64,000 nt of DNA from Herbaspirillum sp. 3R11 (GTDB taxonomy: Bacteria > Pseudomonadota > Gammaproteobacteria > Burkholderiales > Burkholderiaceae_D), in the NCBI RefSeq assembly GCF_004563925.1, contig NZ_SPNJ01000001.1:1302001-1366000 (forward strand), read 5' to 3'. Numbering within the stretch: position 1 is the stretch's first letter; every line of letters begins with the position of its first letter. The translations under genes and the position numbers were made by a program. Positions 9,926 through 41,931 of this stretch are shown here, piece by piece. The notes under the pieces are model-generated. The model saw only the letters and a program-made list of their open reading frames with translations. It searched no databases and was not told the DNA's origin.

Positions 9926-10705
9926 ATGACAGTACCTGACCTGCTGACAATTCCCGCTGCCGCGCTTTCGGCTCATTCCGCGCTGGAGATTGCGTTCCCG
10001 GCGCTGCCGTCTCACAGTGTGCTTTGCATCGGCGTCACCCTTGCACCGGAGCTGCTTTCCGCCGTACAGGCTTGCTGCCACGCATACACGTCCGCTTCTG
10101 AACAGGAACGCGCCGCGCGGTTTTTACATGCAGCCGATGCGGTACGGCATTTGTATGGACGCGCGCTGCTGCGCCGCGCCGCGATCGCTTACGGTGTCAT
10201 GTCGGGAGTACAGGAATTCGACGTCAATCCTTGGGGAAAGCCGGTTCTGCCGGGCGTTGCATTACACGGACTACAGGGCAATGTCAGCCATTCAGGAGCG
10301 CAGATCTGGGTGGCGCTGGCTCGCGGATTCGACGTCGGGATCGACATCGAATCCGCCCAGGCGCCTGACGATTTCCTTGATATTGCCTCCGCATTCCATC
10401 CGCAAGAACAGCAATCGATACGGGAAGCGCAAGATGCACCGCAGGCTATGATGCGCTGCTGGAGTCGCAAGGAAGCGGTGGCAAAAGCAGTCGGGCTAGG
10501 CTTGTCGCTTCCGCTGGAGAGCTATGCAGTCGACAGCGGCGTCGCCACGACCGGTTGGCTCAGGCATGCGCCTGCCGGAACCAATATTGCCGACTGGCAT
10601 TGTGCCGATTTGCGGCAGATCGGGGATCATGTCGGCGCGGTTGCCGTTTATGGAAATTGCCGTAGGATATTGATCTGGCAATTGAACATCCAGGAGAAAA
10701 CATGA
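9926..10705 (+). CDS. Sfp-type 4'-phosphopantetheinyl transferase
   Basis: 259-residue enzyme that converts apo carrier proteins to holo form by attaching the CoA phosphopantetheine arm to the conserved serine. The family blocks are in order: GRALLRRAAIAYGV, NPWGKPVLP, GNVSHSGAQIWVAL, DVGIDIES with metal-binding acidic residues, and WSRKEAVAKAVGLGLSLPL. It faces the NRPS-PKS operon and is the obvious activator of its six carrier domains (one, three and two in the three synthases). The downstream DUF697 gene overlaps its stop by 4 nt (ATGA), so the two are co-translated. Confidence 0.93.
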   Translation: MTVPDLLTIPAAALSAHSALEIAFPALPSHSVLCIGVTLAPELLSAVQACCHAYTSASEQERAARFLHAADAVRHLYGRALLRRAAIAYGVMSGVQEFDVNPWGKPVLPGVALHGLQGNVSHSGAQIWVALARGFDVGIDIESAQAPDDFLDIASAFHPQEQQSIREAQDAPQAMMRCWSRKEAVAKAVGLGLSLPLESYAVDSGVATTGWLRHAPAGTNIADWHCADLRQIGDHVGAVAVYGNCRRILIWQLNIQEKT

Positions 10706-11163
10706 CTGCGCCCGCCCCGCTTACCCGCGCCGCGTTACGCCGTTTGCACGCCCAGGATGTGATCGTCCGCCACACGTCCCTGGCCGGCGCCAGCATGGCT
10801 ATTCCAGTGCCCCTGCTCGACATGGCTGCAGCGCTGGCTATCCAGGTCAGGATGGCGAAGAAATTATGCGCACTGTACGGCGCCGAGTTCAATCGCACAG
10901 CCGCCCGCGACATCATCACCGGCATCCTGGGCGGCTTGTCGCCGGGGAGCCTCAGCGCCACGGCGTTGCGCTACCTATCGTTCGCGAGTTATTTTGCCGG
11001 CACCCTGCCCTCGGCCGGCCTCAGTGCCGCCTATACCTACGTGCTCGGCGAACTGCTGCTGGGTCGACTGATTGCGAACGGGCGCATTGACCTGCCTTCG
11101 CCGGGCGAAATCGACGAACGCCAGTCGTCCACCTCGCCGGAATTGGCCGAAGCGCACGCCTGA
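10702..11163 (+). CDS. DUF697-like small membrane-associated protein (copy 1)
   Basis: 153-residue hydrophobic protein, start overlapping the PPTase stop. The stretch IVRHTSLAGASMAIPVPLLD, then QVRMAKKLCALYGAEF and DIITGILGGLSP aligns by eye with the protein encoded at 15723-16292 (shared H-x(n)-A, P-P--D, Q----K---LYG, then a Gly/Pro-rich hydrophobic segment), so the two look like paralogues. DUF697 domains occur in membrane proteins linked to GTPases, but no biochemical function is firmly known. A location inside the NRPS locus suggests a role in export, membrane organisation or self-protection; that is inference. It converges with the SPFH gene, 18 bp between stops. Confidence 0.7.
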   Translation: MTAPAPLTRAALRRLHAQDVIVRHTSLAGASMAIPVPLLDMAAALAIQVRMAKKLCALYGAEFNRTAARDIITGILGGLSPGSLSATALRYLSFASYFAGTLPSAGLSAAYTYVLGELLLGRLIANGRIDLPSPGEIDERQSSTSPELAEAHA

Positions 11164-11181: not shown

Positions 11182-12372
11182 CTAGCGCAAAGGCGGCGGC
11201 ATCGGCGGGTGGTCGCGCTGAGGCCGTTGTTCGCGATGTGCTTCACGTGCCTGGAGATCGCGAGCGGAATCCGCCGGCTTGATGGCAGCGGCAGCGGCGG
11301 CCGCTTTTGCCGTTGCACTCTTCTCGGAAGAAGCCGGATCGGCGCCCGCATTCTTGCTGTTGCGCGCACCCGATTTCAGCTCCTGCGTCGTGTCTCCCTT
11401 GCCGATATCTGCACGCGGAGCATTGGCTTTTTCCTTGGCGTCCTTTTTCTGCGGCACGCCGTCGCCGTTGATGGAAATCAGAGGCAGGCCGCCCGTCTTG
11501 TCGTTGCCGATCACCACCACCTTGGCGTTCTCGGAACGTGCCAGTTCCAGCGTCGCCTCGATGCCGCGCCAGCGCAGGTAGGCATCCGACATGCCGCCAC
11601 TGATGATTTCCTGGAAATTGCGGATGCCGAGCGCTTCCACACGCTTGCGTTCGCTCTCCTGCTGTTCTTTCTCGACGATCAGCGCGTATTGCTCGACTTC
11701 ATGGCGCGCCACGTTCTTGCGCACGATGGCGTCTTCCACGCCGTCCGGCAGCACGATGCGCTTGACCAGCACGTCTTCGATCAGGATCCAGTTCTGGCCG
11801 GAGCGCAGTTCGGTGTTGAAGCGGTTCTTGATGTCATAACGCACCGACTCGGAGATTTGGTTCTGGATTTCCAGTCGATGGGCGGTGTAGATGTCTTCCG
11901 GACGATAGATCGCAATCACGTCGCGTGCACGCGCACCGACCGATTGGCCGAGCAGCGTCTCGGCATACTCCGGACCGGCATATTTATGCAGCTCGCCGAG
12001 GTGCTCGGGAATAACACGGAAACGCCAGGCCAACGTCGCCATCAGCTTGAGGCCGTCCGAGGACAGCACTTCGAATTCGCGCTCCACGCTTTGCAGTCGC
12101 GCGTCGTAGACGTACATGACGTCCCACGGCATCATCAGATGCGTGCCTTCCGTCTCCACGTGATCGATCACCGTGCCGCCGCCAAAGCGCTTCCACAAGA
12201 CACCAAGGTGGCCGGCCGGAATCGTGACGATCATCGACGGCAGCAAGAACGCGATCATCACCACGAGGATGATCGCGACGATCATCAGGTCGTTGCTGAA
12301 AAACTGCAGTCGCCGACGCAATCGCTCCCAGACGGAGGCTGCGGGGGCGTGGAATGCTTCTGTGGTGCTCAT
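11182..12372 (-). CDS. SPFH/band 7 (prohibitin-like) membrane protein
   Basis: 396 residues with one N-terminal transmembrane helix (about residues 28-50, LMIVAIILVVMIAFLLPSMIV), then a band 7 domain (IPAGHLGVLWKRFGGG through about residue 215) and a coiled-coil-prone region (EVEQYALIVEKEQQESERKRVEALG). The last 90 residues are low complexity, rich in Lys, Ala, Asp and Pro. SPFH proteins oligomerise on membranes and organise microdomains or guard proteases. The start overlaps the stop of the cyclic-peptide exporter by 4 nt, so it is the last gene of the export operon. A role in scaffolding the exporter or protecting the membrane from the product is plausible but inferred. Confidence 0.88.
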   Translation of the reverse strand: MSTTEAFHAPAASVWERLRRRLQFFSNDLMIVAIILVVMIAFLLPSMIVTIPAGHLGVLWKRFGGGTVIDHVETEGTHLMMPWDVMYVYDARLQSVEREFEVLSSDGLKLMATLAWRFRVIPEHLGELHKYAGPEYAETLLGQSVGARARDVIAIYRPEDIYTAHRLEIQNQISESVRYDIKNRFNTELRSGQNWILIEDVLVKRIVLPDGVEDAIVRKNVARHEVEQYALIVEKEQQESERKRVEALGIRNFQEIISGGMSDAYLRWRGIEATLELARSENAKVVVIGNDKTGGLPLISINGDGVPQKKDAKEKANAPRADIGKGDTTQELKSGARNSKNAGADPASSEKSATAKAAAAAAAIKPADSARDLQAREAHREQRPQRDHPPMPPPLR

Positions 12373-14021
12373 GTTGCGGCTCCCTTGCTGGAGATACTGG
12401 TAACGCGGCCTTCCTCGAAATGGAGGCGGCGGTCTGCGTGGTGGAAATATTTATCGTCGTGGGTGATGGCGATGACGGTGATGCCGTCGGCGCGCAGACG
12501 CGGCAGGACAAGCTGGTAGAACTTGGCGCGGAAGTGCGGGTCCTGATCGGCGGCCCATTCGTCGAGCACCATGATCGGCGGGTTTTCCAACTGCGTCGCC
12601 ACCAGGGCCAGCCGCTTGCGCTGGCCGGTCGACAAGTCGACGGTGGAAAACCGGCGACCGTCGAGATGCGCCTTGTTCTCCACTTCCATCTCGTCGATCA
12701 GCGCAGCCGCACGTTCGCGGTCGATGCGCTCGACGCCGTACAGCGTGGGGAACAGGTGGAAATCGGAAAACACTGCGCCGAACATGTCGCGATAACGCTG
12801 CATGTCGGCCCTGCCCACCAGCCGGCCGTCGACCAGGATCTCGCCGGAGTCGGCCGGGTAAAGCCCGGTCAGCATCTTGATGAACGTCGTCTTGCCGGAA
12901 CCGTTGCCGCCCGTGATGAACAAGGTCTCGCCGCGCCGTATGCTCAGGTCGACCGGACCGACGGAGAAGCGCTCGCTGCCCTCGCCTCGCGCAAACGTCA
13001 AATGTCGCAAATCCAAGGTAGTGAAACCGGCGAAGGCAGCCGTCGGCGCTGCGGCTTCGCGCTGGTCGCCGGAAGGGATGCCTTGTTCCACGTTTTCATC
13101 GAACAGTTTTTCCAGCTTCAGCAGATTCTCGGCGGCGGCATTGGCCACGGTAATCTGCGGCGCTGCCGAAATCACGCCCGACACCGGGCCAACCAGGAAC
13201 AGCACGGCGGTCAGCACCTTCACCGTGCTGTCGGCGAAGGTGGTGCTGAGCGCCGGCAAGATGAAGACCAGTGTGCCCAGCAAGATGAAAATGGCGACTT
13301 GCGAAAAGACGAAATTGACGCCCAGCGCGCGCTGCGCCAATGAGCGAAAGAACGCCGTCCGCCCGGATACCATGACGGCGTCCTGCAATAGCTCTGCAGC
13401 ACGGCGGCTGGACAGCTTCACTTCCTTGAAGCCGGCCAGCAGCCCTTCGACCATTTCGTGCAGGGAGACCACTTCATCGTGTGCGCGCCGCAAGTCGATG
13501 CTGGCGCGCTCGCCGCGCTTGCGATACAGCCGCGCCGCCACCAGCAGGACCACGACCACCAGCGCCAGCGCCGGAATCGACAAGGTGGCGATGTAAATGG
13601 TGGTCCAGAAGATCATCATCACCGCCTGGACGCCGAGAATCAGGCTGCCGGCGGTCTGCGAAATGGTCTGCGTGTCGGTGTTGATGGCGGAAAAGATGGC
13701 GCCGTGGCCGATCTTTTCCACACCCAGCAACTCGCAATCGGCCAGCTTGCGGATCAGGCTGCGGCGACGCTCGTCGACAATCCGCTCGACCTCGTCGGTG
13801 GTGGTCTGCAAGACGTAGCGCTGGCTGAAAATGTACACCAGCAAGGCCAGGCCGTAGAGCAGGATGGGAATAAGTTGGCTGCCCCCGCTGGCCTGCGTGG
13901 TGGCGGCGGAATTGACCACCGCCAGGATGCCGGTGCTGGCGCCGCCGGCCAGGAGGGCCATCAGCCCCAGGCGTTGCAGCGACGTCTTTGAATCGCGGAT
14001 GAGAAGTTCGGTCAGACGCAT
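12369..14021 (-). CDS. Cyclic-peptide-type ABC exporter (fused permease-ATPase)
   Basis: 550-residue half-transporter of the SyrD/PvdE family. About six hydrophobic helices occupy residues 15-330 (for example LIPILLYGLALLVYIFSQR and AVMMIFWTTIYIATLSIPAL). The C-terminal ATPase has Walker A GGNGSGKTTF, an ABC signature LSTGQRKRLAL, Walker B IMVLDEWAADQDP and the switch histidine in IAITHDD. The DEWAADQDP wording is the hallmark of this exporter class, whose members move cyclic lipopeptides and pyoverdine precursors across the inner membrane. It lies downstream of the synthases, 4 nt after the small membrane protein gene and overlapping the SPFH gene, so it is the presumed exporter of the NRPS-PKS product. 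Confidence 0.93.
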   Translation of the reverse strand: MRLTELLIRDSKTSLQRLGLMALLAGGASTGILAVVNSAATTQASGGSQLIPILLYGLALLVYIFSQRYVLQTTTDEVERIVDERRRSLIRKLADCELLGVEKIGHGAIFSAINTDTQTISQTAGSLILGVQAVMMIFWTTIYIATLSIPALALVVVVLLVAARLYRKRGERASIDLRRAHDEVVSLHEMVEGLLAGFKEVKLSSRRAAELLQDAVMVSGRTAFFRSLAQRALGVNFVFSQVAIFILLGTLVFILPALSTTFADSTVKVLTAVLFLVGPVSGVISAAPQITVANAAAENLLKLEKLFDENVEQGIPSGDQREAAAPTAAFAGFTTLDLRHLTFARGEGSERFSVGPVDLSIRRGETLFITGGNGSGKTTFIKMLTGLYPADSGEILVDGRLVGRADMQRYRDMFGAVFSDFHLFPTLYGVERIDRERAAALIDEMEVENKAHLDGRRFSTVDLSTGQRKRLALVATQLENPPIMVLDEWAADQDPHFRAKFYQLVLPRLRADGITVIAITHDDKYFHHADRRLHFEEGRVTSISSKGAAT

Positions 14022-14238: not shown

Positions 14239-14805
14239 TTATTTCTTGTCTTGGATTTTCAATGGTACGGCGCCGTATTCCAACGCCCGCACGTCTTGTG
14301 CACAGCTCTCGCCGGTGTCGTACAGGCATTGGATGACTTCCGCTTCACCGGTGGTTTCTTCGCAGCTGGAGGTATCGAGCACGCTGGGGAAGAAATGCAT
14401 GTCCTGCTTGCCGGTCTTGATCAGGTAGAAGCGCGACAAGGTGCTGCCGATGGTCTTGCCGGCTTTCTTGTAGCGGATGCCGACAACCAGTTCTTCCAGC
14501 GTCTGGTTGGAAGAATTGGTCAACTGGATCTGCGGCGAGCAACTGGCCTTCTTCGTCCCGCCCTCGTTGGCGACCATGATCGCCTGCGGCACCGCAAGAT
14601 AGATCAGGCCTTTCGGACGACGCTTCTTGAGCAGCTCCTGCAGCGGCTGGTCGGAGACGAAGGCGCTTGCGCCCAGATGATGGCTGGTGTCCTGCGCATG
14701 GGCGCGAGCCGGCAGCATGCCGCTCAACGTCAGCAGCAGGACTGCGCAGCCTGTCCCTGTGAGTAAACGCGTGACGACCTGCGGCAATATTCTTTTGATG
14801 TTCAT
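14239..14805 (-). CDS. Exported protein of unknown function, export operon
   Basis: 188-residue protein with an N-terminal signal sequence (MNIKRILPQVVTRLL, hydrophobic core CAVLLLTLSGMLPA, cleavage near ARAHAQ). The mature part has four cysteines (ASCSP, SSCEE, IQCLY, ESCAQ), enough for two disulphides, and a beta-rich region around QIQLTNSSNQTLEELVVGIRYKK that resembles an immunoglobulin-like fold in composition. I do not recognise the family. The ATG has GGAG about 9 nt upstream, inside the end of the thioesterase gene, 13 nt between genes; the longer frame would read through the thioesterase stop. Periplasmic location beside a peptide exporter suggests maturation, trafficking or resistance. 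Confidence 0.78.
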   Translation of the reverse strand: MNIKRILPQVVTRLLTGTGCAVLLLTLSGMLPARAHAQDTSHHLGASAFVSDQPLQELLKKRRPKGLIYLAVPQAIMVANEGGTKKASCSPQIQLTNSSNQTLEELVVGIRYKKAGKTIGSTLSRFYLIKTGKQDMHFFPSVLDTSSCEETTGEAEVIQCLYDTGESCAQDVRALEYGAVPLKIQDKK

Positions 14806-14818
14806 GAGGCAGCTCCGC

Positions 14819-15619
14819 TCAGGCAGAGACAAGTGGGTGTAAATCGGCCGACCGCAAATGTGCAACACGTGCAACAGGTGCAAGGTCGGTGTTCAACGCC
14901 GCGCAGACATCCGCGCTGCGGAGGAAAAAATGATCGCCGGCAAATTCTTTCAGCACGAAATCTGCTGTGGTAAAACGCTGCCAGCCGGCCATGCTTTTTG
15001 CATCGGCATGCCTGTCGTCAGCACCGGCATACGCCGTGATCGGATACGCGGCAGGCACAGACACAGCAGCGAATGGCGCCGCGGCCAGCGCAAAGTCGGC
15101 CCGCATCACCGGCAGCACCATCTCCCAGAAGGCCGGTTCGTGCGACATCTCGGCAGGGATCCCACCGTACTGCGACAACAGCGCCTTGAATGCGTCGTCG
15201 TCCAGGCCGATCGCCTGTAATGCCGGCGACGGCATGTCCGGCGGCACATGCGCGGCGACGATCAGCTGCACCGGCGGCAAACCGGCGTTCGCCAGCCTGG
15301 CCGCCAACGCGGATGCCAGACGCGCGCCCATGCTGTAGCCGAACAAGACATACGGCCGATCCAGCTGAGGCATGATCGCTTCCTGCAAGGCCGCCAGCAT
15401 GTCATCCCACGCATGCAGCGGCGCTTCGCCCAGACGCGTCTCGTGCCCCGGATACTGGAGCGGCGCTACGGCTACCCCGGCATCCTCCAGACGCGTGCGC
15501 CAGGAAAGAAAATTGGACGCCCCACCGCCCGCAAACGGCAGGCAGAACAGGCGCGTATGCGCGTCTTCCCGGCCCAGGCCGAAAGGAAACCAGGCGCGTG
15601 ATTCTTGCAGCGGACTCAT
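14819..15619 (-). CDS. Type II (external) thioesterase of the NRPS-PKS locus
   Basis: 266-residue alpha/beta hydrolase of the GrsT/RifR family that clears misprimed or stalled acyl groups from carrier domains. Family start LFCLPFAGGGASNFLSW, nucleophile serine in FGYSMGARLASALA, the acidic residue in YAGADDRHADA and the catalytic histidine in FAGDHFFL are all present. It is the first gene after a terminator hairpin that ends about 40 nt upstream. The ATG has no good ribosome binding site on its own strand (the bases just upstream read as an anti-Shine-Dalgarno, TCCTCC), which is odd for a gene this close to a terminator. With no TE domain on the synthases, this is the only thioesterase in the cluster. 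Confidence 0.92.
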   Translation of the reverse strand: MSPLQESRAWFPFGLGREDAHTRLFCLPFAGGGASNFLSWRTRLEDAGVAVAPLQYPGHETRLGEAPLHAWDDMLAALQEAIMPQLDRPYVLFGYSMGARLASALAARLANAGLPPVQLIVAAHVPPDMPSPALQAIGLDDDAFKALLSQYGGIPAEMSHEPAFWEMVLPVMRADFALAAAPFAAVSVPAAYPITAYAGADDRHADAKSMAGWQRFTTADFVLKEFAGDHFFLRSADVCAALNTDLAPVARVAHLRSADLHPLVSA

Positions 15620-15722: not shown

Positions 15723-16292
15723 TCAGACCGCGTCCTTCTTGCCGCCCGGAACGTGCTTCTTCAGGAAGTCTTTGCCTTCCTGAACCTGCTGCTTGAGCTT
15801 CTGCCCCATTTCCTTGGTCTTGACGTCGAGGAAGGTGCCGCCCGATTCAAAATGTTGCAGGAACAGCTTGCCGATTGCATAGGTGGTTGCGCCCGCCAGC
15901 GTCGATTGCGCCAGTACGCCTGCAGCGATGCCGACGCCCGGAATGAATTTCAGGATGCTGCCGACCGGACCGGCGATGAGCAACGGCAGATAGCCGCTGA
16001 GCACCGAGCCGAGCAGTTTCTTGCCGGTTTCATCGGACAGCGTGAAACCGTACAGGCCGCCGATCTTGCGCAGCAGGCTCAACTGCACGCCGGTCAAGGC
16101 AATCAGGTCGAGGCCCGGGATCGGCAGAATGCCGACGCCCATGGCGGTCATTGCATGGTTCTTGATGGAATGCAGTGCTTCGTTCTGACGCTCTTCCGAG
16201 GTCAGCTCGGCCGCCTGCTCTGTGACCGGTTCTTCTGCGGCGATGGTTTTTTCTGCTTGATCCGTGGTGCTCATGAAAATCTCCTTCATCAA
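15723..16292 (-). CDS. DUF697-like membrane-associated protein (copy 2)
   Basis: 189-residue protein. An acidic N-terminal segment (QAEKTIAAEEPVTEQAAELTSEE) precedes the core: IKNHAMTAMGVGILPIPGLD, QLSLLRKIGGLYG, KLLGSVLSGYLPLLIAGPVG, and a glycine-rich hydrophobic region FIPGVGIAAGVLAQSTLAGATTY. A basic, lysine-rich tail follows (KDFLKKHVPGGKKDA). It is paralogous to the DUF697-like protein encoded beside the PPTase. It is transcribed in the same direction as the synthases, 305 bp beyond their end, and just before a terminator. GGAG lies about 6 nt before the ATG. Function unknown; two copies bracketing an export cassette argue for a real link to the product. Confidence 0.8.
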   Translation of the reverse strand: MMKEIFMSTTDQAEKTIAAEEPVTEQAAELTSEERQNEALHSIKNHAMTAMGVGILPIPGLDLIALTGVQLSLLRKIGGLYGFTLSDETGKKLLGSVLSGYLPLLIAGPVGSILKFIPGVGIAAGVLAQSTLAGATTYAIGKLFLQHFESGGTFLDVKTKEMGQKLKQQVQEGKDFLKKHVPGGKKDAV

Positions 16293-16597
16293 TTAAACGC
16301 CCTGACGCACATGAGGCTTGCTGCATGACTCAAGGCGGGGGAAAAAGACTCTGCCGCGTTCGACAGAGCGTCACTATCGGGAAATCGTCGAATATGAGGC
16401 CAACGCGTCAACGCATCATTAACGCATCGTTAATATACGCAGACCGCAGAAATTATTGGGCATACAGCCAATATATTCAACAAATTCCCAACAAAAAACC
16501 TGATTACCTTCTTGATTCATCTCATATGCCGGCCCCTCCGTACTGACCGGTTGGAAAAATGCCCGGTTTAACGCCGGATCGCAGGTAATAAAGAGCT
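16293..16597. other. Gap between DUF697 gene and the last synthase gene
   Basis: 305 bp, partly A/T-rich around 16400-16500, with several GTTAAT/ATTAAC-like elements. A weak hairpin near the synthase end is listed separately. It probably holds the promoter of the DUF697 gene. No gene is supported here. Confidence 0.45.
16555..16582 (-). terminator. Weak terminator-like hairpin after the last synthase gene
   Basis: Minus strand: CCGG, 7 nt, CCGG followed by GCATTTTTCC, about 20 nt beyond the synthase stop. The stem is short, so termination would be partial at best. Confidence 0.4.
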
Positions 16598-19500
16598 TCA
16601 ACCATGCATGCCCTCCATCAGCGTTTCCAGCGTCGAGTCATCCGGCACACCGAGCACATCCAGCAGCGCCGCATAGGAGCGCAACATGGCTTCGGCTTTT
16701 ACTGCTGAAACCAGGCCGGCGTCGTACACCGCGATCAGGCTCAGCTGCTCGCCCGGCGTGACTTCCACGTTGAACGGGTAATGCCACTGGTCACGAATGG
16801 CAACATCGCTGACTTGCAGTGCGGCGTTGCCTTGCCCGACGTCGCCCAGCGGATAGTTCTGGATGCGCAGCGCGGTCCCAAACAAGGCGTCGCCGTCCGG
16901 CAGGCCGATGCATCCTGCAATGTCCGACAAGGCCAGCGCGGCGTGCGCAGTTGCAGCGACACGCCTGCGCTGGAGCTGCAGGCAGGCGTCAACGAAGCCG
17001 GCGGCCGGATCGATCTTGCAGCGCAATGGCGGCGTGTTGATCAGGTTGCCGACCATGGTTTCAATGCAGTCAACGTCGGCCGGACGCAATACCGTGGTGA
17101 CGCCGAAACACACCTCGTCCGCACTGCTGTGACGGGCCAGCACCAGCGCCCATGCCTGCATGAAAATACTGGGCGCCGACAAGCGGTGCTTGCGTGCAAA
17201 CGTACTCAGGCGCGCGCCGGTTCCCGCTTGCGGCTGCAAGCTGATTTCCGCAAAGTTGCCGCTGCAGGCAGCGCCCGGCCCGGCGGGCCAGCGCGACGGT
17301 TTCAGGTCGGCCAGTTCATCGCGCCAGAAGCTGCGTGCGGCCACCCCATCCTGGCGTTCCAGCCAGTCGAGGAAAACCCGGAAGTCCGGCGCCGGTGCTG
17401 TCGTCAGTTGCTTGCCGTAGGCAGCCATGACTTCGTTGAACAAGACCGGCATCGACCAGCCGTCGATCAGGATGTGATGATAGGTCCAGACGAAATGCCG
17501 GCCGGTCCTGGTCGTCAGCAGCGAGAAGCGCATCAGCGGCGGCTTTGCCAGGTCGAAGCCGCGTTGCCGGTCTTGCCTGCAATAGACGTCGAAAGCGGCG
17601 TCGGCCTCTGCTTCCGGCAAGTTGCCCCAGTCTTCGCGCTGCCAGACCAGTGTCGATGCTTCGCCGAAATATTGACCGGCCTTGCCGCTCTCCCCGATCA
17701 CAAAACCGGCACGCAATGACACATGCCTCGCCAGCACTGCCTGCCACGCAGCGACGAAATCGTCGACCGCCAGTTCCGCCGGCAGGCGCGCAGTGAATTG
17801 CACCACGTAAGCGGGAGACTCCGGATACGCAGTCGCGTGCTCCAGCATGGCGGCCTGCTGCGGCGCCAACGCGTACCGCGGCGCCGCCTCATTTTGCGTA
17901 CTCTGCGCTCCCTGCGTCAACGCCTGCAACCAGCCGCGCATCGCGCTGCTCAGCCTTTCGGCGAAGTCTTGCGGAAGCACGCGCGGATCGAAAGTCAGAT
18001 CCAGCTGCAAACGTCCACCGGCGATCATGGCGTTGACTTCCAGCACATAAGGACGCGGCGTCGATGGTGCAAAGCCGGCGCCGTCGGTTTCCGGCGCGGG
18101 CCGGACCGGCAGGCTGTCAGGCCATGCGGTATCCCATTGGCCCAGATAGTTGAAAGCGATCTCGGGAACCGGCAACGCCGCCAGCGCTTCCCGCACAGCG
18201 GCGTCAGGAGACAGGAAGCGCAGCACGCCGAAACTGAATCCGTGCCGCGGCATCGCCTTGAGTTTGTCGCGCACCTTGTCGATGCGCTGCTCGCCCAGCG
18301 GCATGGTCCACGGCGCCAGCACGGTGAACCAACCCGGCATGCCGCCGACGTCGACGCCTTCCAGCACGACGTCGCGACCGTGGGACTCGAGTGCAATGCC
18401 GATCTCGCTACCAATCACGTGCTGATCTGCGCTGCCGATCAGTTCGCCCAGCGCCACACTCAATGCGGTCAGCAGGATTTCCTGCACTTGCGCCCCATGG
18501 CTGCGCGGCAGCTCCCGCACCAGCATGCCGGTGGCGGTTTCATCCAATGTGAAACCCATCGTCTGCGCGGCGCCGGCGGTAGCTGCGATGTCGGTGCGCA
18601 GCAGCGGCAGGCGCGCTGAATTGCGCGGCTGCTCCAGCCAGTAGCCAAGTTCGTCGCGAGCTTGCGCGGACACTGCATGACGCTCCACCGCCGCAGCCCA
18701 TTGCGCGAAGGAAACGCGCGCCGGCGGCAAGCTGACGGCTGCAGATGTCAGCGCTTGCGCATAGGCGTCGAACAGGTCTTCCAACAGCGCGCGCCACGAC
18801 ACCCCATCGATGATCAGATGATGTGCAACGACATGCAGTCGCGCTGTCGCTGATTCTGTTGATGCTGCTGGCGGTGCGTACAGCACCAGCCGCAGCAAGG
18901 GACCCTGTTCGATGTCGAGGCGCGTCTGGTTGTGTGCTACGCCTTGTTCAAGCAAGGCGTGCCAGCCGGCCATGTCCACCGGCGGCGGTACGGTTTCCAA
19001 TAGCCCGGCGGCATGCTCGCTCAGATGCTGATGCCAGATGCCGTCGACTTGTTTGAACCGCAGCCGCAACGCATCATGGCGCGCGCAAACGGCGTCGAGC
19101 GCGCGTTGCAGCGCCTGCGCATCCAGTCCGGCCGGTACTTCCAGCAGGAAGCTCTGGTTGTAGTGATGCAGGTCCGGCGGATTCTGCTGCAGGAACCAAT
19201 GCTGTATCGGCGTCAGCGGCACGGGGCCGCTGGTCGGCATCGGCGTCGGCGCACGTTGCGCGCTCTGCCCGGCGCTGGCGTCAACCTGTGCCGCCAGCGC
19301 CGCCAACGTCGACGAATCCGGATCCATGATCTGATTCAGCGTCAGCGCAATGCCCTGGCGGTTGGCTTTGGACACCACCTGGATCGCCAGGATCGAGTCG
19401 CCGCCGAGTTCAAAGAAGTTGTGTGCCGGCTGCACCTGCGTCACATTGAGCACTTGCGCCCAGATGGCCGCCAGCTGGCGCTCGGTCTCGCCGGCATAGT

Positions 19501-22500
19501 CGATCACGATGACCGCCGGCGGCTGCTCCGGCATGGTCTCGAGCATCTCCAACGCCTTGCGGTCGATCTTGCCGCTGACGGTCAGTGGCATGGATTCCAA
19601 TGCGATGAAATACGCCGGCAGCATATGCGGCGGCAACTGCTCACCGAGGAAGGCCCTCAAGCTGTCATTCGCGATCGGAACGCGTGTCTCAAGATAGGCC
19701 GTCAGGCGGCGGTCGTCCGCGCCGTGGCTACGCACCAGCACGGCGGCATTACGCACGTCGGCATGCTGCATCAGCGCCGCCTCAATCTCACTGAGCTCGA
19801 TGCGGAACCCGCGCAGCTTGACCTGATGGTCATTGCGCCCGACGAACTGCACCCGGCCGTCCGCGAGGCGATAGCCACGGTCGCCGGTTTTATACAGGCG
19901 CGAGCCGGGCGCTCCGTAGGGATCCCGCAAGAAACTCGCCGCCGTCAGATCCGGACGATTCAGATAGCCGCGCGCCAGCCCCGCCCCGCCGATGTATAGC
20001 TCGCCGACCACGCCGGGCGGCAGCAGTTGCATATCGGCGTCCAGCACATGCAGCTGCATGTTCGGCAGCGGCCGGCCGAGCGATAGTTGCCCGGGGTTGC
20101 CGCTGCTTTCATTTACTGCGGACCAGGCTTCGACGCTCACAGCGACCGATGCTTCGGACGGGCCGTAACCGTTATAGAACTTGCGCCCCGGTCCCCAGCG
20201 CAGGACCAGTTCGGGCGCGCAGCTTTCACCCGCGACCACCAGCGTTTGCAAATCTGGCAGACGACCTTCATCCAGCGTCGCCAGTGCAGTCGGCGGCAAG
20301 GTTGCCGCACTGATGTGCCGGCGCTGCATGAACTGTTCCAGTCCTTCGCCGACGCGGGCGGTATCGGCGTCCGGCACGATCAGCGCCGCACCGGCGCCGA
20401 ACGCCATCGTCATTTCCCAGATCGAGGCATCGAATGACAGCGACGCGAACTGCAATACCCGCGCGTCCGGCGACAAGCCGAACGCGCTGCGCTGGGCATG
20501 CGCCAGCGAACGCAGGCCGGCGTGGGTATTGCCGACGCCCTTGGGGGTGCCGGTCGAACCGGAGGTGTAGATCACGTAAGCCAGCGACTGAGGATGTGGC
20601 TGCGGGAAGTCGACAGCGTCGGCTTCTTCAGCAGTCGAAGCAGCAAACAAGACATCCGGATCTTGCGTGATTGCCTGCGCCTGCAAGGCTTCGGCGCACA
20701 CGCGATCGGCAATCAGCAAGGACGCGCCGCTGTCTTCCAGCATGAAACGTCTGCGCGCGACCGGATAAGCAGGATCGAGCGGGACGAAGGCGCCGCCGCA
20801 GCGCAGGATGGCGATGACCGCGATCACATAGCGGGCGGAGCGCGGCAGACATAGCGCGACCTTGGTTTCGACGCCGACGCCGAGCGCCTGCAGGCGTCGC
20901 GCCAGCCGCACTGATTCGGCGCGCAAGGCCTCGTAACTCAGACTCAGTTCCTGATCGTTCAGGGCCAGCGCATCCGGTGAGTGCTTTGCCCAGGCGTCAA
21001 TCTGCTGGGGCAAGTACGCAGGCGCAATTGTCTCAACCGGACCACGCCCTGCCGCCAATGCCGCCTGCGCGTCGATATCGCCCAGCGCCAGCAGACGCGC
21101 CGCCGGCCAGTCCGGATGCGCAGCCATGCTGTCGAGCAGGCGTCCCAATTGCGCCAGCAGGCGCTCGGCGGCTGCGGCGGGAATGCTGCCGTCGCGGTGC
21201 AACGCCAGGCTCAGGGTCTCGCCGACGCTGCAGACCAGGGTCAGCGGATAGTTGGTGCGCTCTCTCACTTCCACGCCGGTCAGGCGCAGACCGCCGCCGG
21301 ACAGCGATTGCGCCTTCGGATAATTCTGCACCAGCAGCAAGGTCTGGAACAATTCCTGGTTGCCGGGCAAGGATGCAGCCTGGCGGATTTCGGTCAGCGA
21401 CGCACCCGCATGCAACTCGCGCTCCAGATGCTGCTCCTGCAATTGCGCCAGCCAATCCGACAACGGCGTCGCCGATGGAATCGTCACCCGCGCCGGCACC
21501 GTGGCGATGAGCATGCCGATCATTTCTTCGACGCCGTCAAGTTCTGCCGGCCGGCCGGAAACGGTCACGCCGAAGACCACGTCGCGGCCGGCGCTGCAGC
21601 GCGCCAGCAATAGCCCCCAGGCTGCCTGCAACACCGTACCGAACGTGGTGCGGGCGCGTTGCGCCAGTTTTTGCACTGCTTGCGTGCGCGCCGTTGACAA
21701 CTCCATCGCGTGCACCGCAGCGTCTCCCGAGACGGCATCGCCCGCCTGCGTGGCGAACGCCAACGAGGTCGGCTCTGTTATTCCTTGCAACGAACGCTGC
21801 CAGAAGGCGATGTCGTCCTTGCGTTCACGCCGCTCATGCCAGCGCACATAGTCGGAAAAACGCGGCGCGGTCTTGAGCCGCACCGAGGCGTCGCCCAGCG
21901 CCTGGCGATACAGCGCGAAGATGTCGGCCAGCAGCAGCGACACCGACCAGCCGTCCAGCAGCAAGTGATGTGAACTCCAGACCAGCTCATGGCGCTGCTC
22001 CGCGACGCGCACCAGTTGCAAGCGCTGCAGCGGCGCCTGCTCAAGTTCGAAGCCGCGCGCAACTTCGGCGCGCATCAACTGGTCCAGCGCCGCCACGCGG
22101 CCGGCTTCATCGAGGCCGCGCCAGTCGGCCACGCTCCACGACAATGCGACGTGAGCATGCACGCGCTGGCGCATCACAGGCATGTCGCGCCAGTGGAAAC
22201 TGGTGCGCAACATGCTGTGACGTTGCTGCGCCTGTTCCCACGCGCGCCGCAAGGCCTCGGCGTCAAGCACGCCGTCCAATGTCAGGCGCAACTGGTTGCA
22301 GTAAATATCCGGATCACGCAAGCTATGGAACACGATGCCTTGCTGCAAAGGCGTCAGCGGCAATTCTTCCTCAATGCTGTCCTGCGGTGAAGCAGCATGT
22401 CGCTGTGCTGCAGCGGCGATCTCGTGCAATGCGGCCGTTACTTCGCGCAGCCACGCGCCGACGCGTTCGCGTTGCGCCTCGCCCGCCGGGAAACTGATTG

Positions 22501-25500
22501 CGCCGCTGAGGCAGCCGGCACGGATGCCGGCGTTGATTTCGATGACGTGGCTGCGCGCAAATGCCGCGCTCTGCCCTTGCCCGCTGTCTTCGTCGACGGC
22601 GGCGAAACCCTCGCCGCCGGCAGCGCCGATATCGAGCCTGCCGAGGTAGTTCAGAAGAATCCCGGCGCCCGGTAAACCTTGCAACGCAGCGCGCTGTGCG
22701 GGGTCCGCCGACAGGTAGCGCATGACGCCCATCGCCAGTCCCTGACACGGCGATTCGCGCACCCGCTCGCAGACATTCGCCACGACTTCGGATGGATCAG
22801 GCTCTGCGTCCGGCCACAGCAACAGCACCGGTTGCACCGCCGTAAACCAGCCGACGGTCCCCGAGAGGTCGACGTCGTCGAACAGGTCGACGCGGCCATT
22901 ACGCTCCAGATCGATCTGCAATGCCCCCTTGAGTCCGATGCGGGCGGCTCCGATGAACAAGGCCGCCATGAGCAGTTCATCGACGCGGGCATGGAAAACA
23001 CCCGGCGCCACTTGCAACAGGACGGTCGTGGTGTCGCTGTCGAGTGACAGCGACATGGTCTCTGCAGCACCCGCGGCGCCGGCCGGCAAGTCCGCCGGCA
23101 ACACGGAAAGTCCCCGCTCGGCGAAGCGTTCGACAAAATAATCCACCGACGACTGCGCCGCCGGCGTGGCGGCCAGTTCGCGCAGCTTGTGCGACCAGGT
23201 GCGATACGAGGTGGTAGCCGCCGGCAACACAATCTCGCCGCGCAAGGCCTGGTCGTATGCAAGGCTCAGGTCATCCAGCAATACCGACCAGGAATACGCG
23301 TCAACGGCCAGGTGATGCACTACGATCATCAGGCGCGCGGCCGGTTGCGCCAGCACCGCCCGCATCACCCGGCCGCTACGCAAATCCATGCTGCGCTGCG
23401 CCTGCTCATAGGCGGCTGTACGCGCCGGCAATTCGGCTTCAATGCCGTCCAGCACGCGCAGGATCGTCCCGGGCGCAGCGACGGCAACCTGCAAATCCTC
23501 CCCCTCGACCTGCAGGCGCAACATCGGATGGCGCGCCGCCACCGCCTGCAGAGCACGTTCCAACGCAGCCGCATCGACCTGCGCCGGCGTCTGCAGCACG
23601 ACGGACTGGTTGTAGTGGGCGCGATGTTCCCCCGCCTGCTCGAAGAACCATGCCTGAATCGGCGTCGGCTGCAACTCGCCGTCATCGGCTTCCGGCGGTT
23701 TGTTGCCGGGCATGGCTTGGCCACGAGACTCCAGCGCGCGCATCAGATCGCGCACCGTCTGGAACCTGAAAATGTCACGCACCGTCAGGTTCAGTTGCAA
23801 CTGCCGCGCACGCGACACCACCTGCAGGCTGCGGATCGAATCGATGCCGAGCTCGAAGAAATTGTCGCAAGGTCCGACTGCAGGCCGGTCCAGCACCTCG
23901 GCAAACAACGCCGCGAGCGGCGCTTCGGCGGCCGTCGTGTCGATGAAGGCAAGATCATGCAAAGACGGAATATCGCGGGTGACATCCATTTCCAGCAAGG
24001 CGCGCCGGTCGGTCTTGCCCGATGCGGTGCGCGGCAATCGCGGCAGCGTGACGCACAGCGCGGGCACCATGTAAGCCGGCAGACGTTCACCCAGCCACAT
24101 CCGCAACGAACCCGACTCCAGTTCCGCATCGCAGCCTGCGGCGGCCAGCAACTGGCCCGATCCCGCGCTGTCCGAACGCATCAGCACGACCGCTTCGTGC
24201 ACCTGCGGGTGCGCCATCAGCGCCGCTTCGATCTCTGCCAGCTCGATCCGGTAGCCGCGCACTTTGGCCTGCTGATCCTTGCGGCCGATGAACTCCAGCG
24301 TGCCGTCGATGCGACGACGTCCCAGATCGCCGCTACGATAGCTTTGCAAAGCGGGCGCCAGCGGATGCGGCCGGAACACGGCGGCGGTCTGTTGAGGCTG
24401 GCCGACATAGCCTTGCGCCACGCCCGCGCCACTGATCAGAATTTCGCCGATGACGCCCGGCGGCACCGGCAGACCGCGACCATCCACGACTTCCAGCACG
24501 ACGCCGGCAATCGCCCGGCCGACCGGCAAGACGTCGGCGGCCGATGGCAGCGCCTGTTCGGCGGGATTGAAGAAGGAAGACGTAATAGTTGCTTCGGTCG
24601 GACCATAGCCGCTGCGGAAAGCGATCGGATGCGCACACAGGGCCTGCCACTCGCGCCAGCGACGGGCGAATACCCGGTCGCTGCCTGTCACGACCAGCCG
24701 CAGGCAAGCCGGCGGCGCACGACGTGCATGGCCAAGCGCACGCACCCATTCATGCCAGAACGCCGCAGGCAGATTCAGTACGCTCAGGGCTGCTTGCTCC
24801 ACGTGGTCCTGGAACGCATCGATGCTGTCGATGACGCCCTCGGCGCGGATCACCACGCAAGCGCCGGCCATCAACGCAGGGAAGATTTCCTCGGCGGCAA
24901 CGTCAAAATCTGCCGCGGCAAATTGCATCACCCGGTCGCTCTCGCTCAGCCCAAAATCCTGCGCCACTGCCCGCGCGTGATTGGCGAGATTGGCCTGCGT
25001 CACGGCGACGCCCTTGGGCGTACCCGACGAGCCGGAGGTAAAGCAGATGTAGGCCAATGCCGCAGCATGTTCCGCGACGGCAGGCAGCGCCGGCAACGAC
25101 GATGAGGTTTCGGGAGAATCCGACAACAAGACCGGCACCGGCCAGCCGTCCTGTTCCGAGGCGGTCGTGACCACCAGCGCAATACCTGCGGTGGCGATCA
25201 TCTGCGCGCGCCGCGCCGCCGGTTGCTGCGGACTCAGGACCGCGTAAGCCGCGCCGGCGCGCCAGGTCGCCAGCATTGCCACCACCAAGGCAGCAGAGGA
25301 AGAGAATCCGAGCCCGACTACTGCCCCGGACTGCACTCCGGCGGCGACAAGGCGTAGCGCCAGCAGATCGGCCTGAAGCATCAGCTCGCGATAGGAAAGG
25401 CTTGTGCCGCCCTCTTCCACGGCAATCCGGTCCGGATGACGCAGCGCGCCGGCGGCGATCATTTGCGGCAGCAACGGCGCAGGTTCGACGTCTGGCAGCG

Positions 25501-27061
25501 ACGCCGCGGAAGGCAGCGCCAGTTGCACACAAGACAACGGCGTCGACTCGTCGACGGTCGCGTGCTGCAGCACGTAGGCGAATTGCTCGCAGAATCCGGC
25601 GATGGTGTCCAGATCGAACAAGTCGGTGTCGTATTCCATCACGCAGCGATAGTCGTCGCCGTCGAGATGGACGAAAAAATTGAGATCCAGCTCCGGGGCG
25701 CCCGCTGTCGGCGGCACCGCTTCCACCTGCAGTCCGGCCAGCGTCAGCTCCGGGCTCGCGCCGCTTTGCTGTACGAACATGGTCTGGAACAGCGGCGCCT
25801 TGTTCAACGCACGCTCGGGACGTACTGACTGGACGATGCGTTCGAACGGCGCCTGCTGGTGTTCAAACGCTTCGAGACACGTGGTGCGGATGCGTCGGAT
25901 CAATTCGGCGAGATCCGGGTCGCCGTGCAAGCTGATCCGTAGCGGCATGGTGTCGACAAAGAAGCCAACCAGTCCATGCGTCTCGCTGCGGTCGCGATTG
26001 CCGACCGGGCAGCCGATCACCACTTCATCCTGTCCAGACCAGCGCGACAAGACTTGCGCGTAGACAGCCAGCAGCACCATGAACGGCGTCGCGCCGGTGC
26101 GCAAGCCGATGGCCTGTACCTTCGGCACCGTGCCTGGCGCCAGTCGCAACTCATGCATGGCGCCGGCGTTGCCGCGTTCCGCCGGACGCGGACGGTCCAG
26201 CGGCAAGGCCAGCTCGGTGACGACACCGTCCAGTTGTTCGCGCCAATAGCGCAGATGCGGCGCCAGTCGTTCCTCGCTGAACATGGCGCGTTGCCACACC
26301 GCATAGTCGGAATACTGGACCGCCAGCGTAGCCGGCCGCAGCGATGACGCGCCGGTTTCCAGCGCGTACAGCATTCCCAGCTCATTGATCATTACGCCCA
26401 TGGACCAGTGATCGGACACGATGTGGTGCATCGCCAGCGTCAGGACATGGTCGCGCGACGTCAGTTGCAACAGCTTCACGCGCAACGGCGGCGCGGCGGT
26501 CAGATCGAAAGGCAGCGCGGCTTCGCGTGCCAGCAGCACCTGTTCGGCCGAATCCGGAATGCTGCCGGTCGCGGGGAACTCGACATTCAGTGAGAACGGT
26601 ATGGCGGGGAGAATGTGCAGCTCGGGTTCGACACTGTCGTCCCGGATCACGCTGCGCAGCAGCTCATGACGCGCAGTCAGCGCGCCCAGTGCACGCTCCA
26701 GCGCCGGCAGGTCGAGCGCGCCCTGCAATCGCCATCCGGCCATGATGACAAAAGCGCTGCCGCCGCCTTCGAGCTGGTCGAGGAACCACAGGCGGCGCTG
26801 GTTGAACGACAGCGGCGCGGTCGTACGCTGCACCGTGCTGCGCGCCAGTTCCGGGAAAGACGACGCTGAAGATGACGTTGCCGGCGAGATCGGCGACGAC
26901 TGCAAATGCGCGACCAGCTCGGCCTTCCTCGCGCCGAGCTCGGCGCGCAGCGCAGGCGACAAGGCGCCTGCCGGGCCGCGCACGCGCAGGTCGTTGCCGG
27001 CGCATGTCAGCGACACGCCGAGCTCCGCCAACTGCGCGATCAACTGTTCAACCCGGTTCAA
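16598..27061 (-). CDS. NRPS with terminal condensation domain: dd-C-A-T-E-C-A-T-E-C
   Basis: About 3487 residues, last protein of the assembly line. Order with rough positions: TubC-type N-terminal docking domain (1-55, VEQLIAQLAELGVSLTCAG); C1 (80-510, HHIVSDHW); A1 (530-1010, FTSGSSGTPKG); T1 (Ser near 1072, FFELGIDSI); E1 (1125-1545, HHLAVDAYSW, NYLGRLD); C2 (1560-1990, HHLLLDGWS); A2 (2015-2510); T2 (GGDSI, near 2553); E2 (2605-3030, HHLIIDGVSW, FNYLGQWD); terminal C3 (3050-3487, HHILIDGWS). Both T domains have the DSI form used before epimerases. My reading of the ten-residue codes is DVENVTGITK for A1 (no match recalled; Glu239/Asn278 recall ornithine-type codes) and DAWTVAGVAK for A2 (close to phenylalanine codes). 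There is no TE or reductase; C3 presumably releases the chain. Start is TTG at 27061, GGAG upstream, overlapping the previous stop (TTGA). Confidence 0.95.
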   Translation of the reverse strand: MNRVEQLIAQLAELGVSLTCAGNDLRVRGPAGALSPALRAELGARKAELVAHLQSSPISPATSSSASSFPELARSTVQRTTAPLSFNQRRLWFLDQLEGGGSAFVIMAGWRLQGALDLPALERALGALTARHELLRSVIRDDSVEPELHILPAIPFSLNVEFPATGSIPDSAEQVLLAREAALPFDLTAAPPLRVKLLQLTSRDHVLTLAMHHIVSDHWSMGVMINELGMLYALETGASSLRPATLAVQYSDYAVWQRAMFSEERLAPHLRYWREQLDGVVTELALPLDRPRPAERGNAGAMHELRLAPGTVPKVQAIGLRTGATPFMVLLAVYAQVLSRWSGQDEVVIGCPVGNRDRSETHGLVGFFVDTMPLRISLHGDPDLAELIRRIRTTCLEAFEHQQAPFERIVQSVRPERALNKAPLFQTMFVQQSGASPELTLAGLQVEAVPPTAGAPELDLNFFVHLDGDDYRCVMEYDTDLFDLDTIAGFCEQFAYVLQHATVDESTPLSCVQLALPSAASLPDVEPAPLLPQMIAAGALRHPDRIAVEEGGTSLSYRELMLQADLLALRLVAAGVQSGAVVGLGFSSSAALVVAMLATWRAGAAYAVLSPQQPAARRAQMIATAGIALVVTTASEQDGWPVPVLLSDSPETSSSLPALPAVAEHAAALAYICFTSGSSGTPKGVAVTQANLANHARAVAQDFGLSESDRVMQFAAADFDVAAEEIFPALMAGACVVIRAEGVIDSIDAFQDHVEQAALSVLNLPAAFWHEWVRALGHARRAPPACLRLVVTGSDRVFARRWREWQALCAHPIAFRSGYGPTEATITSSFFNPAEQALPSAADVLPVGRAIAGVVLEVVDGRGLPVPPGVIGEILISGAGVAQGYVGQPQQTAAVFRPHPLAPALQSYRSGDLGRRRIDGTLEFIGRKDQQAKVRGYRIELAEIEAALMAHPQVHEAVVLMRSDSAGSGQLLAAAGCDAELESGSLRMWLGERLPAYMVPALCVTLPRLPRTASGKTDRRALLEMDVTRDIPSLHDLAFIDTTAAEAPLAALFAEVLDRPAVGPCDNFFELGIDSIRSLQVVSRARQLQLNLTVRDIFRFQTVRDLMRALESRGQAMPGNKPPEADDGELQPTPIQAWFFEQAGEHRAHYNQSVVLQTPAQVDAAALERALQAVAARHPMLRLQVEGEDLQVAVAAPGTILRVLDGIEAELPARTAAYEQAQRSMDLRSGRVMRAVLAQPAARLMIVVHHLAVDAYSWSVLLDDLSLAYDQALRGEIVLPAATTSYRTWSHKLRELAATPAAQSSVDYFVERFAERGLSVLPADLPAGAAGAAETMSLSLDSDTTTVLLQVAPGVFHARVDELLMAALFIGAARIGLKGALQIDLERNGRVDLFDDVDLSGTVGWFTAVQPVLLLWPDAEPDPSEVVANVCERVRESPCQGLAMGVMRYLSADPAQRAALQGLPGAGILLNYLGRLDIGAAGGEGFAAVDEDSGQGQSAAFARSHVIEINAGIRAGCLSGAISFPAGEAQRERVGAWLREVTAALHEIAAAAQRHAASPQDSIEEELPLTPLQQGIVFHSLRDPDIYCNQLRLTLDGVLDAEALRRAWEQAQQRHSMLRTSFHWRDMPVMRQRVHAHVALSWSVADWRGLDEAGRVAALDQLMRAEVARGFELEQAPLQRLQLVRVAEQRHELVWSSHHLLLDGWSVSLLLADIFALYRQALGDASVRLKTAPRFSDYVRWHERRERKDDIAFWQRSLQGITEPTSLAFATQAGDAVSGDAAVHAMELSTARTQAVQKLAQRARTTFGTVLQAAWGLLLARCSAGRDVVFGVTVSGRPAELDGVEEMIGMLIATVPARVTIPSATPLSDWLAQLQEQHLERELHAGASLTEIRQAASLPGNQELFQTLLLVQNYPKAQSLSGGGLRLTGVEVRERTNYPLTLVCSVGETLSLALHRDGSIPAAAAERLLAQLGRLLDSMAAHPDWPAARLLALGDIDAQAALAAGRGPVETIAPAYLPQQIDAWAKHSPDALALNDQELSLSYEALRAESVRLARRLQALGVGVETKVALCLPRSARYVIAVIAILRCGGAFVPLDPAYPVARRRFMLEDSGASLLIADRVCAEALQAQAITQDPDVLFAASTAEEADAVDFPQPHPQSLAYVIYTSGSTGTPKGVGNTHAGLRSLAHAQRSAFGLSPDARVLQFASLSFDASIWEMTMAFGAGAALIVPDADTARVGEGLEQFMQRRHISAATLPPTALATLDEGRLPDLQTLVVAGESCAPELVLRWGPGRKFYNGYGPSEASVAVSVEAWSAVNESSGNPGQLSLGRPLPNMQLHVLDADMQLLPPGVVGELYIGGAGLARGYLNRPDLTAASFLRDPYGAPGSRLYKTGDRGYRLADGRVQFVGRNDHQVKLRGFRIELSEIEAALMQHADVRNAAVLVRSHGADDRRLTAYLETRVPIANDSLRAFLGEQLPPHMLPAYFIALESMPLTVSGKIDRKALEMLETMPEQPPAVIVIDYAGETERQLAAIWAQVLNVTQVQPAHNFFELGGDSILAIQVVSKANRQGIALTLNQIMDPDSSTLAALAAQVDASAGQSAQRAPTPMPTSGPVPLTPIQHWFLQQNPPDLHHYNQSFLLEVPAGLDAQALQRALDAVCARHDALRLRFKQVDGIWHQHLSEHAAGLLETVPPPVDMAGWHALLEQGVAHNQTRLDIEQGPLLRLVLYAPPAASTESATARLHVVAHHLIIDGVSWRALLEDLFDAYAQALTSAAVSLPPARVSFAQWAAAVERHAVSAQARDELGYWLEQPRNSARLPLLRTDIAATAGAAQTMGFTLDETATGMLVRELPRSHGAQVQEILLTALSVALGELIGSADQHVIGSEIGIALESHGRDVVLEGVDVGGMPGWFTVLAPWTMPLGEQRIDKVRDKLKAMPRHGFSFGVLRFLSPDAAVREALAALPVPEIAFNYLGQWDTAWPDSLPVRPAPETDGAGFAPSTPRPYVLEVNAMIAGGRLQLDLTFDPRVLPQDFAERLSSAMRGWLQALTQGAQSTQNEAAPRYALAPQQAAMLEHATAYPESPAYVVQFTARLPAELAVDDFVAAWQAVLARHVSLRAGFVIGESGKAGQYFGEASTLVWQREDWGNLPEAEADAAFDVYCRQDRQRGFDLAKPPLMRFSLLTTRTGRHFVWTYHHILIDGWSMPVLFNEVMAAYGKQLTTAPAPDFRVFLDWLERQDGVAARSFWRDELADLKPSRWPAGPGAACSGNFAEISLQPQAGTGARLSTFARKHRLSAPSIFMQAWALVLARHSSADEVCFGVTTVLRPADVDCIETMVGNLINTPPLRCKIDPAAGFVDACLQLQRRRVAATAHAALALSDIAGCIGLPDGDALFGTALRIQNYPLGDVGQGNAALQVSDVAIRDQWHYPFNVEVTPGEQLSLIAVYDAGLVSAVKAEAMLRSYAALLDVLGVPDDSTLETLMEGMHG

Positions 27062-41837: not shown

Positions 41838-41931
41838 CCCACTCCCCTGAGCGCTACCGGTCATGCCGGCATTGCTGCGCTCTTCATCTTTGCCTTGTTA
41901 AAAAAACGAGGCGATTTTCTGCTTGCCATAG

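Follow-up and report, generated by a model that had tools for sequence, protein, structure and literature searches.

Gene clusters of the kasumigamide family were described in 2016 (PMC5061366): kas comes from Entotheonella, a sponge symbiont, makas from Microcystis aeruginosa NIES-87, dakas from Delftia acidovorans CCUG 274B, and hkas from Herbaspirillum sp. CF444. The kas, dakas and hkas lines have the domain order A-KR-T / C-A-T-C-A-T-KS-AT-KR-T / C-A-T-E-C-A-T-E-C (PMC5061366). Kasumigamide was isolated from the kas and makas systems, and its production is given as unconfirmed in Delftia and Herbaspirillum. In the available text of that paper, the authors state that a thioesterase (TE) domain is absent, regard termination by the condensation (C) domain as likely and expect this domain to do the work of a thioesterase; for makas, which has no terminal C domain, they call the release unclear. 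Both the family and the idea of a C domain acting as the releasing domain are already in print there. As far as the accessible parts of two further papers go, PMC12838216 lists kasumigamide as makasA-D, and PMC7551678 calls it a ribosomal cyanobactin, contradicting PMC5061366.

Here we report on the end of a synthetase line found in a stretch of 64,000 nucleotides from Herbaspirillum sp. 3R11, hereafter the window. A Pfam domain search revealed three consecutive megasynthases on one strand (Table 1), whose domain order is the one published for kas, dakas and hkas. Between NRPS3 and its orthologue in Herbaspirillum sp. CF444 (L047) the identity is 82%, and the two have common neighbours. On its domain order and neighbourhood, the window locus is a kasumigamide-type (hkas) PKS-NRPS.

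Table 1. Features of the hkas-like locus in the window (positions are those of the window).
Feature	Coordinates	Strand	Remarks
NRPS1	37869..41864	-	1331 aa, A-KR-T loader, HkasA-like
NRPS2	27058..37872	-	3604 aa, C-A-T-C-A-T-KS-AT-KR-T, HkasB-like
NRPS3	16598..27100	-	3500 aa, TubC_N docking-C-A-T-E-C-A-T-E-C, HkasC-like (Pfam)
C3, terminal condensation domain	16598..17878	-	residues ~3075-3500, HHILIDGWS intact, last domain
E2, epimerisation domain	17888..19225	-	HHLIIDGVSW and FNYLG, immediately precedes C3
T2, last carrier, donor for C3	19289..19477	-	Pfam residues 2542-2604
Stand-alone type II thioesterase	14819..15619	-	PF00975, E 8e-40, GYSMG
DUF697 protein	15723..16292	-	kept in Herbaspirillum and Delftia copies
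Small conserved protein	14239..14805	-	no Pfam match; hydrophobic stretch at the N-terminus, judged by eye; directly after the TE
Cyclic-peptide-type ABC exporter	12369..14021	-	TIGR01194 above cut-off
SPFH/Band 7 protein	11182..12372	-	conserved neighbour
4'-phosphopantetheinyl transferase	9926..10705	+	adjoins 4/5 Herbaspirillum/Delftia copies; outside the compared L047 stretch

The likeness to hkas of strain CF444 covers the three synthetases, their domain order, the C ending and the downstream neighbours; the difference lies in an mbtH-like gene over the NRPS3 stop of CF444. This gene overlaps the stop in two Herbaspirillum copies (L047, 11364; L049, 11343) and is absent at this spot from the window (16292-16598), and also from L048 and L056. 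With dakas of Delftia acidovorans the window shares architecture and downstream neighbours, the Delftia NRPS3 being 52% identical, whereas a CmlA-type hydroxylase gene (PF18456) overlaps the NRPS3 stop in the one Delftia genome searched and was found in none of the five cluster-bearing Herbaspirillum genomes. The Entotheonella kas line has the identical module order and also ends E-C, but no TE is listed among kasA-I, the cloned region, in the available text of PMC5061366. Microcystis makas differs by a moved PKS module and by the lack of the terminal C domain. For the loader of NRPS1, the NCBIfam matches are acyl-CoA and acyl-AMP ligases; a FAAL-type starter was considered and dropped, since the homologous kas loader is assigned to phenylpyruvate, reduced to phenyllactate (PMC5061366). 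In the first C domain of NRPS2 (36427-37740), which should condense the starter hydroxy acid with the first amino acid, HHNIIDLW replaces HHxxxDG, and the Delftia counterpart reads HHAIIDLW.

When genomes were scanned with C3 aligned to its Delftia counterpart, six loci were returned, three in Herbaspirillum, two in Delftia and one in Azospirillum. Each of the five Herbaspirillum and Delftia loci keeps the order NRPS3, DUF697, TE, small protein, exporter, Band 7, and a further copy (G415) has the identical neighbour order. Two DUF697-type proteins (10702-11163 and the one in Table 1) accompany the cluster in Herbaspirillum and Delftia, together with the Band 7 protein. Within the genus, an NRPS3 orthologue of at least 76% identity occurs in 5 of 34 genomes, that of the window included. 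Samples of the order (399 genomes) and the phylum (398 genomes) contained no carriers other than the genome of the window and one Delftia, with profile scores of 750-823 bits in the phylum sample against 281 bits for the next domain. The C3-type domain was found in 1 of 299 sampled genomes of the Delftia family, and in 1 of 41 genomes of the genus of G133. Among 72,556 plasmid records, 579 matched and none had an identity of 60% or more; the best 30 of the 579 reach at most 36.4%. The Azospirillum isscasi locus (L052, 1-3526) holds a terminal C domain of the same clade, whose stop overlaps the gene of an ABC exporter 37% identical to that of the window; the contig ends just upstream of this C domain.

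The sequence-only reading had described an E2-C3 ending with an intact HHILIDGWS motif and about 290 residues beyond it, and this description is borne out. The Pfam match of C3 spans 16658-17878 (model positions 4-431 of 456), the first His of the motif is residue 3209 and the protein ends 291 residues later, so that the stop falls roughly at the expected start of a C-A linker. Orthologues end at a common point in 5/5 carrier genomes among the 34 of the genus, the window's included, the four others having 284-285 residues after DGWSMP. C3 is also terminal in two Delftia species, the Azospirillum terminal C domain (46% identical to C3) likewise ends its protein, and C3 is the last domain in every copy whose end was read. 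This shared end point indicates that the ending is not a chance truncation. Moreover, C3 is clearly under purifying selection, a little looser than on the other C domains of NRPS3: for six pairs drawn from four Herbaspirillum copies, dN/dS (Nei-Gojobori) is 0.157-0.250 for C3, 0.122-0.221 for C1 and 0.123-0.174 for C2, and the C3 value is slightly above the two others in most pairs. The catalytic motif is kept in the 7/7 aligned terminal domains from three genera.

The earlier statement that no further carrier follows C3 held as well. In the genome assembly (10 contigs, 99.99% complete), all seven PF00668 matches lie within the locus; TIGR01733 gave 20 matches, of which the four above the curated cut-off are all in NRPS2 and NRPS3, while the sixteen below it comprise the NRPS1 loader and 15 elsewhere in the genome. 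As PF00668 and above-cut-off TIGR01733 matches are confined to the locus, these searches detected no further NRPS module that could act in trans in this assembly, and the idea of a later module in trans was rejected for it. Endings of related type were seen in other lines. In L037 (G151), E-C closes one protein and the next open frame begins with an A domain, likely a module split between C and A, which means that terminal C domains are not all releasing domains. Another Herbaspirillum NRPS (L080, G425) ends E-C-TE, with neither A nor T between C and the TE (GWSVGG), which makes for an unusual terminal module, and L081 probably has the same ending, judged by its length. An NRPS of L035 (G021) ends E-C-T-TE, its last module having no A domain.

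To relate C3 to other C domains, 90 of 143 domain rows (87 C, 3 E) were placed in a maximum-likelihood tree. Thirteen near-duplicate or redundant loci (L044, L051, L053-L055, L061, L065-L067, L069, L071, L074 and L081) were left out, and the C2 row of the window was lost by duplicate removal, its four orthologues and the Delftia C2 being retained. The rows come mostly from C3 matches, with after-epimerase domains over-represented, and include no rhabdopeptide, glidonin, IvoA or crocacin sequence. All eight terminal domains, which come from Herbaspirillum, Delftia and Azospirillum, group in a single long-stemmed clade (100/100), placed within a 52-row group (96/94) dominated by after-epimerase C domains. 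From this position C3 should take a D-configured donor, matching E2. Three terminal C-T domains, which we take to be ornibactin-like and, with general statements in PMC10587159, amine-accepting, fall outside the C3 clade; their group of 28 rows (100/94), in the other part of the tree, holds C domains mostly found behind a carrier or at an N-terminus. Phylogenetic placement, proposed with the sequence-only reading as a way to choose between releasing functions, thus gave C3 its own after-epimerase clade and no grouping with these three domains.

Within the after-epimerase group, we compared seven terminal rows with 35 others, leaving out the second Delftia terminal C domain and also L039-L041, three after-epimerase domains that lie outside the 52-row group. 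Residue 3088 is Ala (five) or Glu (two) in the terminal rows and Phe, Tyr or Leu in 34 of the 35 others, and it is Ser in the second Delftia species. Residue 3413 is Arg in 7/7 terminal rows and Val, Leu or Ile in all 35 others. In the FscG structure (PMC8097023, available text), W2579 and L2580, close to the gate R2577, are touched by the acceptor carrier, and the acceptor side-chain pocket may be lined by M2917, S2919 and Q2921, among other residues. Mapped by motif and not by superposition, these sites correspond to C3 3085-3088 and 3411-3415. At the acceptor-carrier contact a hydrophobic side chain would then have disappeared from C3, and the acceptor pocket would have acquired an Arg that does not vary among the terminal rows. 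In domain C13 of the glidonin synthetase, docked putrescine lies near Ser9963, Asp9965 and Glu9984 (PMC10587159, available text), and from residue spacing alone Ser9963 may match position 3413 of C3, where an Arg would be unfavourable to a cationic amine and might occupy the pocket. Conserved positions with a fixed departure number 17/89 in the C3 clade without the second Delftia domain and 12/94 in the ordinary C2 clade, with 0/88 and 2/83 in two other clades; the 9 to 23 counted for lone domains or a pair cannot be compared with these. Taken as proof of a new function, this count was set aside as weak, the C2 value being close to that of C3. The structure prediction of C3 is poor (mean pLDDT 66.7), and a fold search with this model returned the general C/E/X fold only (TM ~0.4); neither serves as evidence here.

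Kasumigamide, C40H50N8O9, comprises phenyllactate, beta-Ala, an indole unit, D-Arg and D-erythro-phenylserine (PMC5061366, available text), and from the module order we read the indole unit as a malonate-extended and then reduced Trp. Subtracting four waters from the sum of the five free units yields precisely C40H50N8O9, so that kasumigamide is by formula linear with a free C-terminal acid; an amide would add the atoms of the amine and a ring form, C40H48N8O8, would be one water lighter, and the formula therefore speaks against both. The sequence-only reading had named a free C-terminal acid as the outcome contrary to its proposals, and this is what the formula yields for the family product. 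The [M+Na]+ printed in PMC5061366 (809.3801) is about 26 ppm higher than the value that we compute (809.3593), and a trace at m/z 787.3-787.5 in the legend of its supplement fits the computed [M+H]+ of 787.377.

The hydroxylase of Delftia bears on the product expected from the window strain. The gene had been considered as a releasing hydrolase with a beta-lactamase-like fold, an idea dropped because its Pfam match is the CmlA hydroxylase. Used as a query, its product found 0/4 in Herbaspirillum, and one marginal match in G400 (73 residues, E 0.0076). Having no CmlA hydroxylase among its matches, the window strain is expected to make a deoxy form ending in D-Phe, with a predicted [M+H]+ of 771.382 (753.372 for its ring variant). 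Read against PheA, two A-domain codes presumably agree with the family assignments: that of the first A domain in NRPS2 is beta-Ala-like (..WTISLAD), and that of the last in NRPS3 is Phe-like (DAWTVAGVA). The name deoxykasumigamide was not met in the part of the kasumigamide literature searched.

On these grounds we propose the following sequence of events. The chain, which from the family would be phenyllactate, beta-Ala, malonate-extended reduced Trp, D-Arg and D-Phe, would be completed on T2, epimerised by E2 and passed as a D-configured thioester to C3. Having no downstream carrier, C3 would let water attack the thioester by means of HHxxxDG, yielding the linear acid, and the free type II TE would most likely clear mis-primed carriers. 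It is very probable that the terminal C domain takes part in release, and we consider it probable, with some reserve, that it does so by hydrolysis to a linear free acid; this hydrolase role, drawn from the formula of the family product, and the residue-level reasons for it are inferred. Hydrolysis is supported by that formula, the closeness of the CF444 orthologue, the shared domain order, the E-C ending of kas with no TE in its gene list, and the lack of a TE match near the Azospirillum terminal C domain (11.8 kb, nearly all downstream). The purifying selection on C3, its separate clade, residues 3088 and 3413, and the free-acid precedents given below point the same way. C3 also has the position of a hydrolytic terminal C domain, last on the line with neither a carrier nor a TE domain behind. 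On the other side stands the TE found beside all seven Herbaspirillum and Delftia copies examined, and makas yields kasumigamide without a terminal C domain, so that another release route exists. No enzyme assay of a kas-type terminal C domain was found in the kasumigamide literature searched. Chain release by the terminal C domain, as suggested earlier, is plausible and in print as an expectation for the closest relatives (PMC5061366, available text), while neither nucleophile proposed with it gained support.

Since makas releases its product without a terminal C domain, the main rival is release by the TE in trans, in which the free type II TE would hydrolyse the finished chain from T2 and C3 would act as a gate or scaffold for the D-peptidyl thioester. 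The claim that there is no TE anywhere on the line is true of the megasynthases but had overlooked this stand-alone PF00975 protein, encoded on the same strand about 1 kb past the synthetase stop with the DUF697 gene between. Its GxSxG motif is conserved in the 7/7 Herbaspirillum and Delftia copies beside which it is found, and the route would give the identical free acid. However, the protein is by its nearest relatives a stand-alone type II TE, with a likely task in editing: the closest solved structures are stand-alone TEs, RifR (E 1e-28) and surfactin TEII among them, and the best TE from inside a synthetase, a RifR fusion construct aside, scores far lower (E 1e-9). In its own genome, PF00975 has six matches, three above cut-off, the cluster TE reaching 138 bits and the next 34. 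Furthermore, no TE appears in the Entotheonella gene list as available, and none was matched near the Azospirillum domain. We regard TE release as unlikely, although ahead of every other alternative to hydrolysis by C3.

The two outcomes that the sequence-only reading had favoured fare less well. Transfer of the chain by C3 to a cellular amine, giving a C-terminal amide, has a precedent in the putrescine-adding terminal module shown in a Burkholderiales strain (PMC10587159, available text), and rhabdopeptides carry C-terminal amines and come from lines ending in a terminal C domain; yet the formula of the family product leaves no room for an extra amine, C3 does not group with the three C-T domains taken to be ornibactin-like, and Arg3413, probably at the putrescine-docking Ser of glidonin C13 by residue spacing only, would repel a cation. 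Amidation is thereby left unsupported, and we hold it to be quite improbable. Ring closure by C3, through attack of the starter or another chain hydroxyl on the thioester of the D-residue, seems still less probable: the KR of the loader should leave a hydroxyl, and fungal terminal C domains do cyclise (PMC11546977, available text), but kasumigamide is linear by formula, and a depsipeptide ring formed with the starter hydroxyl likewise finds no support there. The exporter had been taken to suit such a ring, and it does belong to the cyclic-peptide class (TIGR01194, 309.7 bits against a cut-off of 286.2); in the kas cluster, which makes a linear product, kasE has a match to a cyclic peptide transporter as well (PMC5061366, available text), and the exporter therefore does not argue for a ring. 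That C3 might be a functionless remnant of a lost C-A-T-TE module could be read from the NRPS3 stop at the C-A boundary, from the Microcystis line that is entirely devoid of this domain (available text) and from a dN/dS slightly above that of C1 and C2. The ratio is still just 0.16-0.25, the catalytic motif persists in all seven aligned domains of three genera, and the terminal domains form their own deep clade; with the low dN/dS and orthologues ending at one place, a truncated or decayed module was rejected, and a remnant is the least credible of these explanations, having only a very slight chance of being right. Hydrolysis by C3 remains our preferred reading.

Release of a free acid by a terminal C-type domain has been described elsewhere. 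In IvoA of Aspergillus nidulans, an E domain precedes the terminal C domain and a free acid is released; the available text of PMC11546977 names tyrosine and that of PMC12751119 tryptophan, the latter also mentioning free-acid release in 'a few bacterial NRPSs'. IvoA resembles the window line in having E followed by a terminal C-type domain and a free acid as product, but it is fungal and single-module. The terminal C-type domain of crocacin, likewise said to free an acid, is known to us by a title in the reference list of PMC12751119. In glidonin, ornibactin-like and rhabdopeptide lines, the C domain of the terminal module also replaces a TE, the difference being that an amine is added and not water. 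We tentatively suggest, as a possibility somewhat short of an even chance, that C3 and its Delftia and Azospirillum kin could be a separate bacterial lineage of water-accepting, D-specific domains, which would have arisen, separately from IvoA and crocacin, from ordinary after-epimerase C domains as the acceptor-carrier contact was lost (Phe to Ala, Glu or Ser at 3088) and the invariant Arg3413 came to plug the acceptor pocket.

Sequence hardly tells which of hydrolysis, amidation and cyclisation a terminal C domain performs. The kasumigamide family offers a test case in this respect, with a known product, a terminal C domain, a copy without it (makas) and isolate genomes in two genera. The gain of the present work is that the guess of an amide or lactone is corrected to a free acid with a predicted mass, the finding itself being already known. 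If the proposed lineage is true, Arg3413 would be a sequence mark separating free-acid release from amine or ring release.
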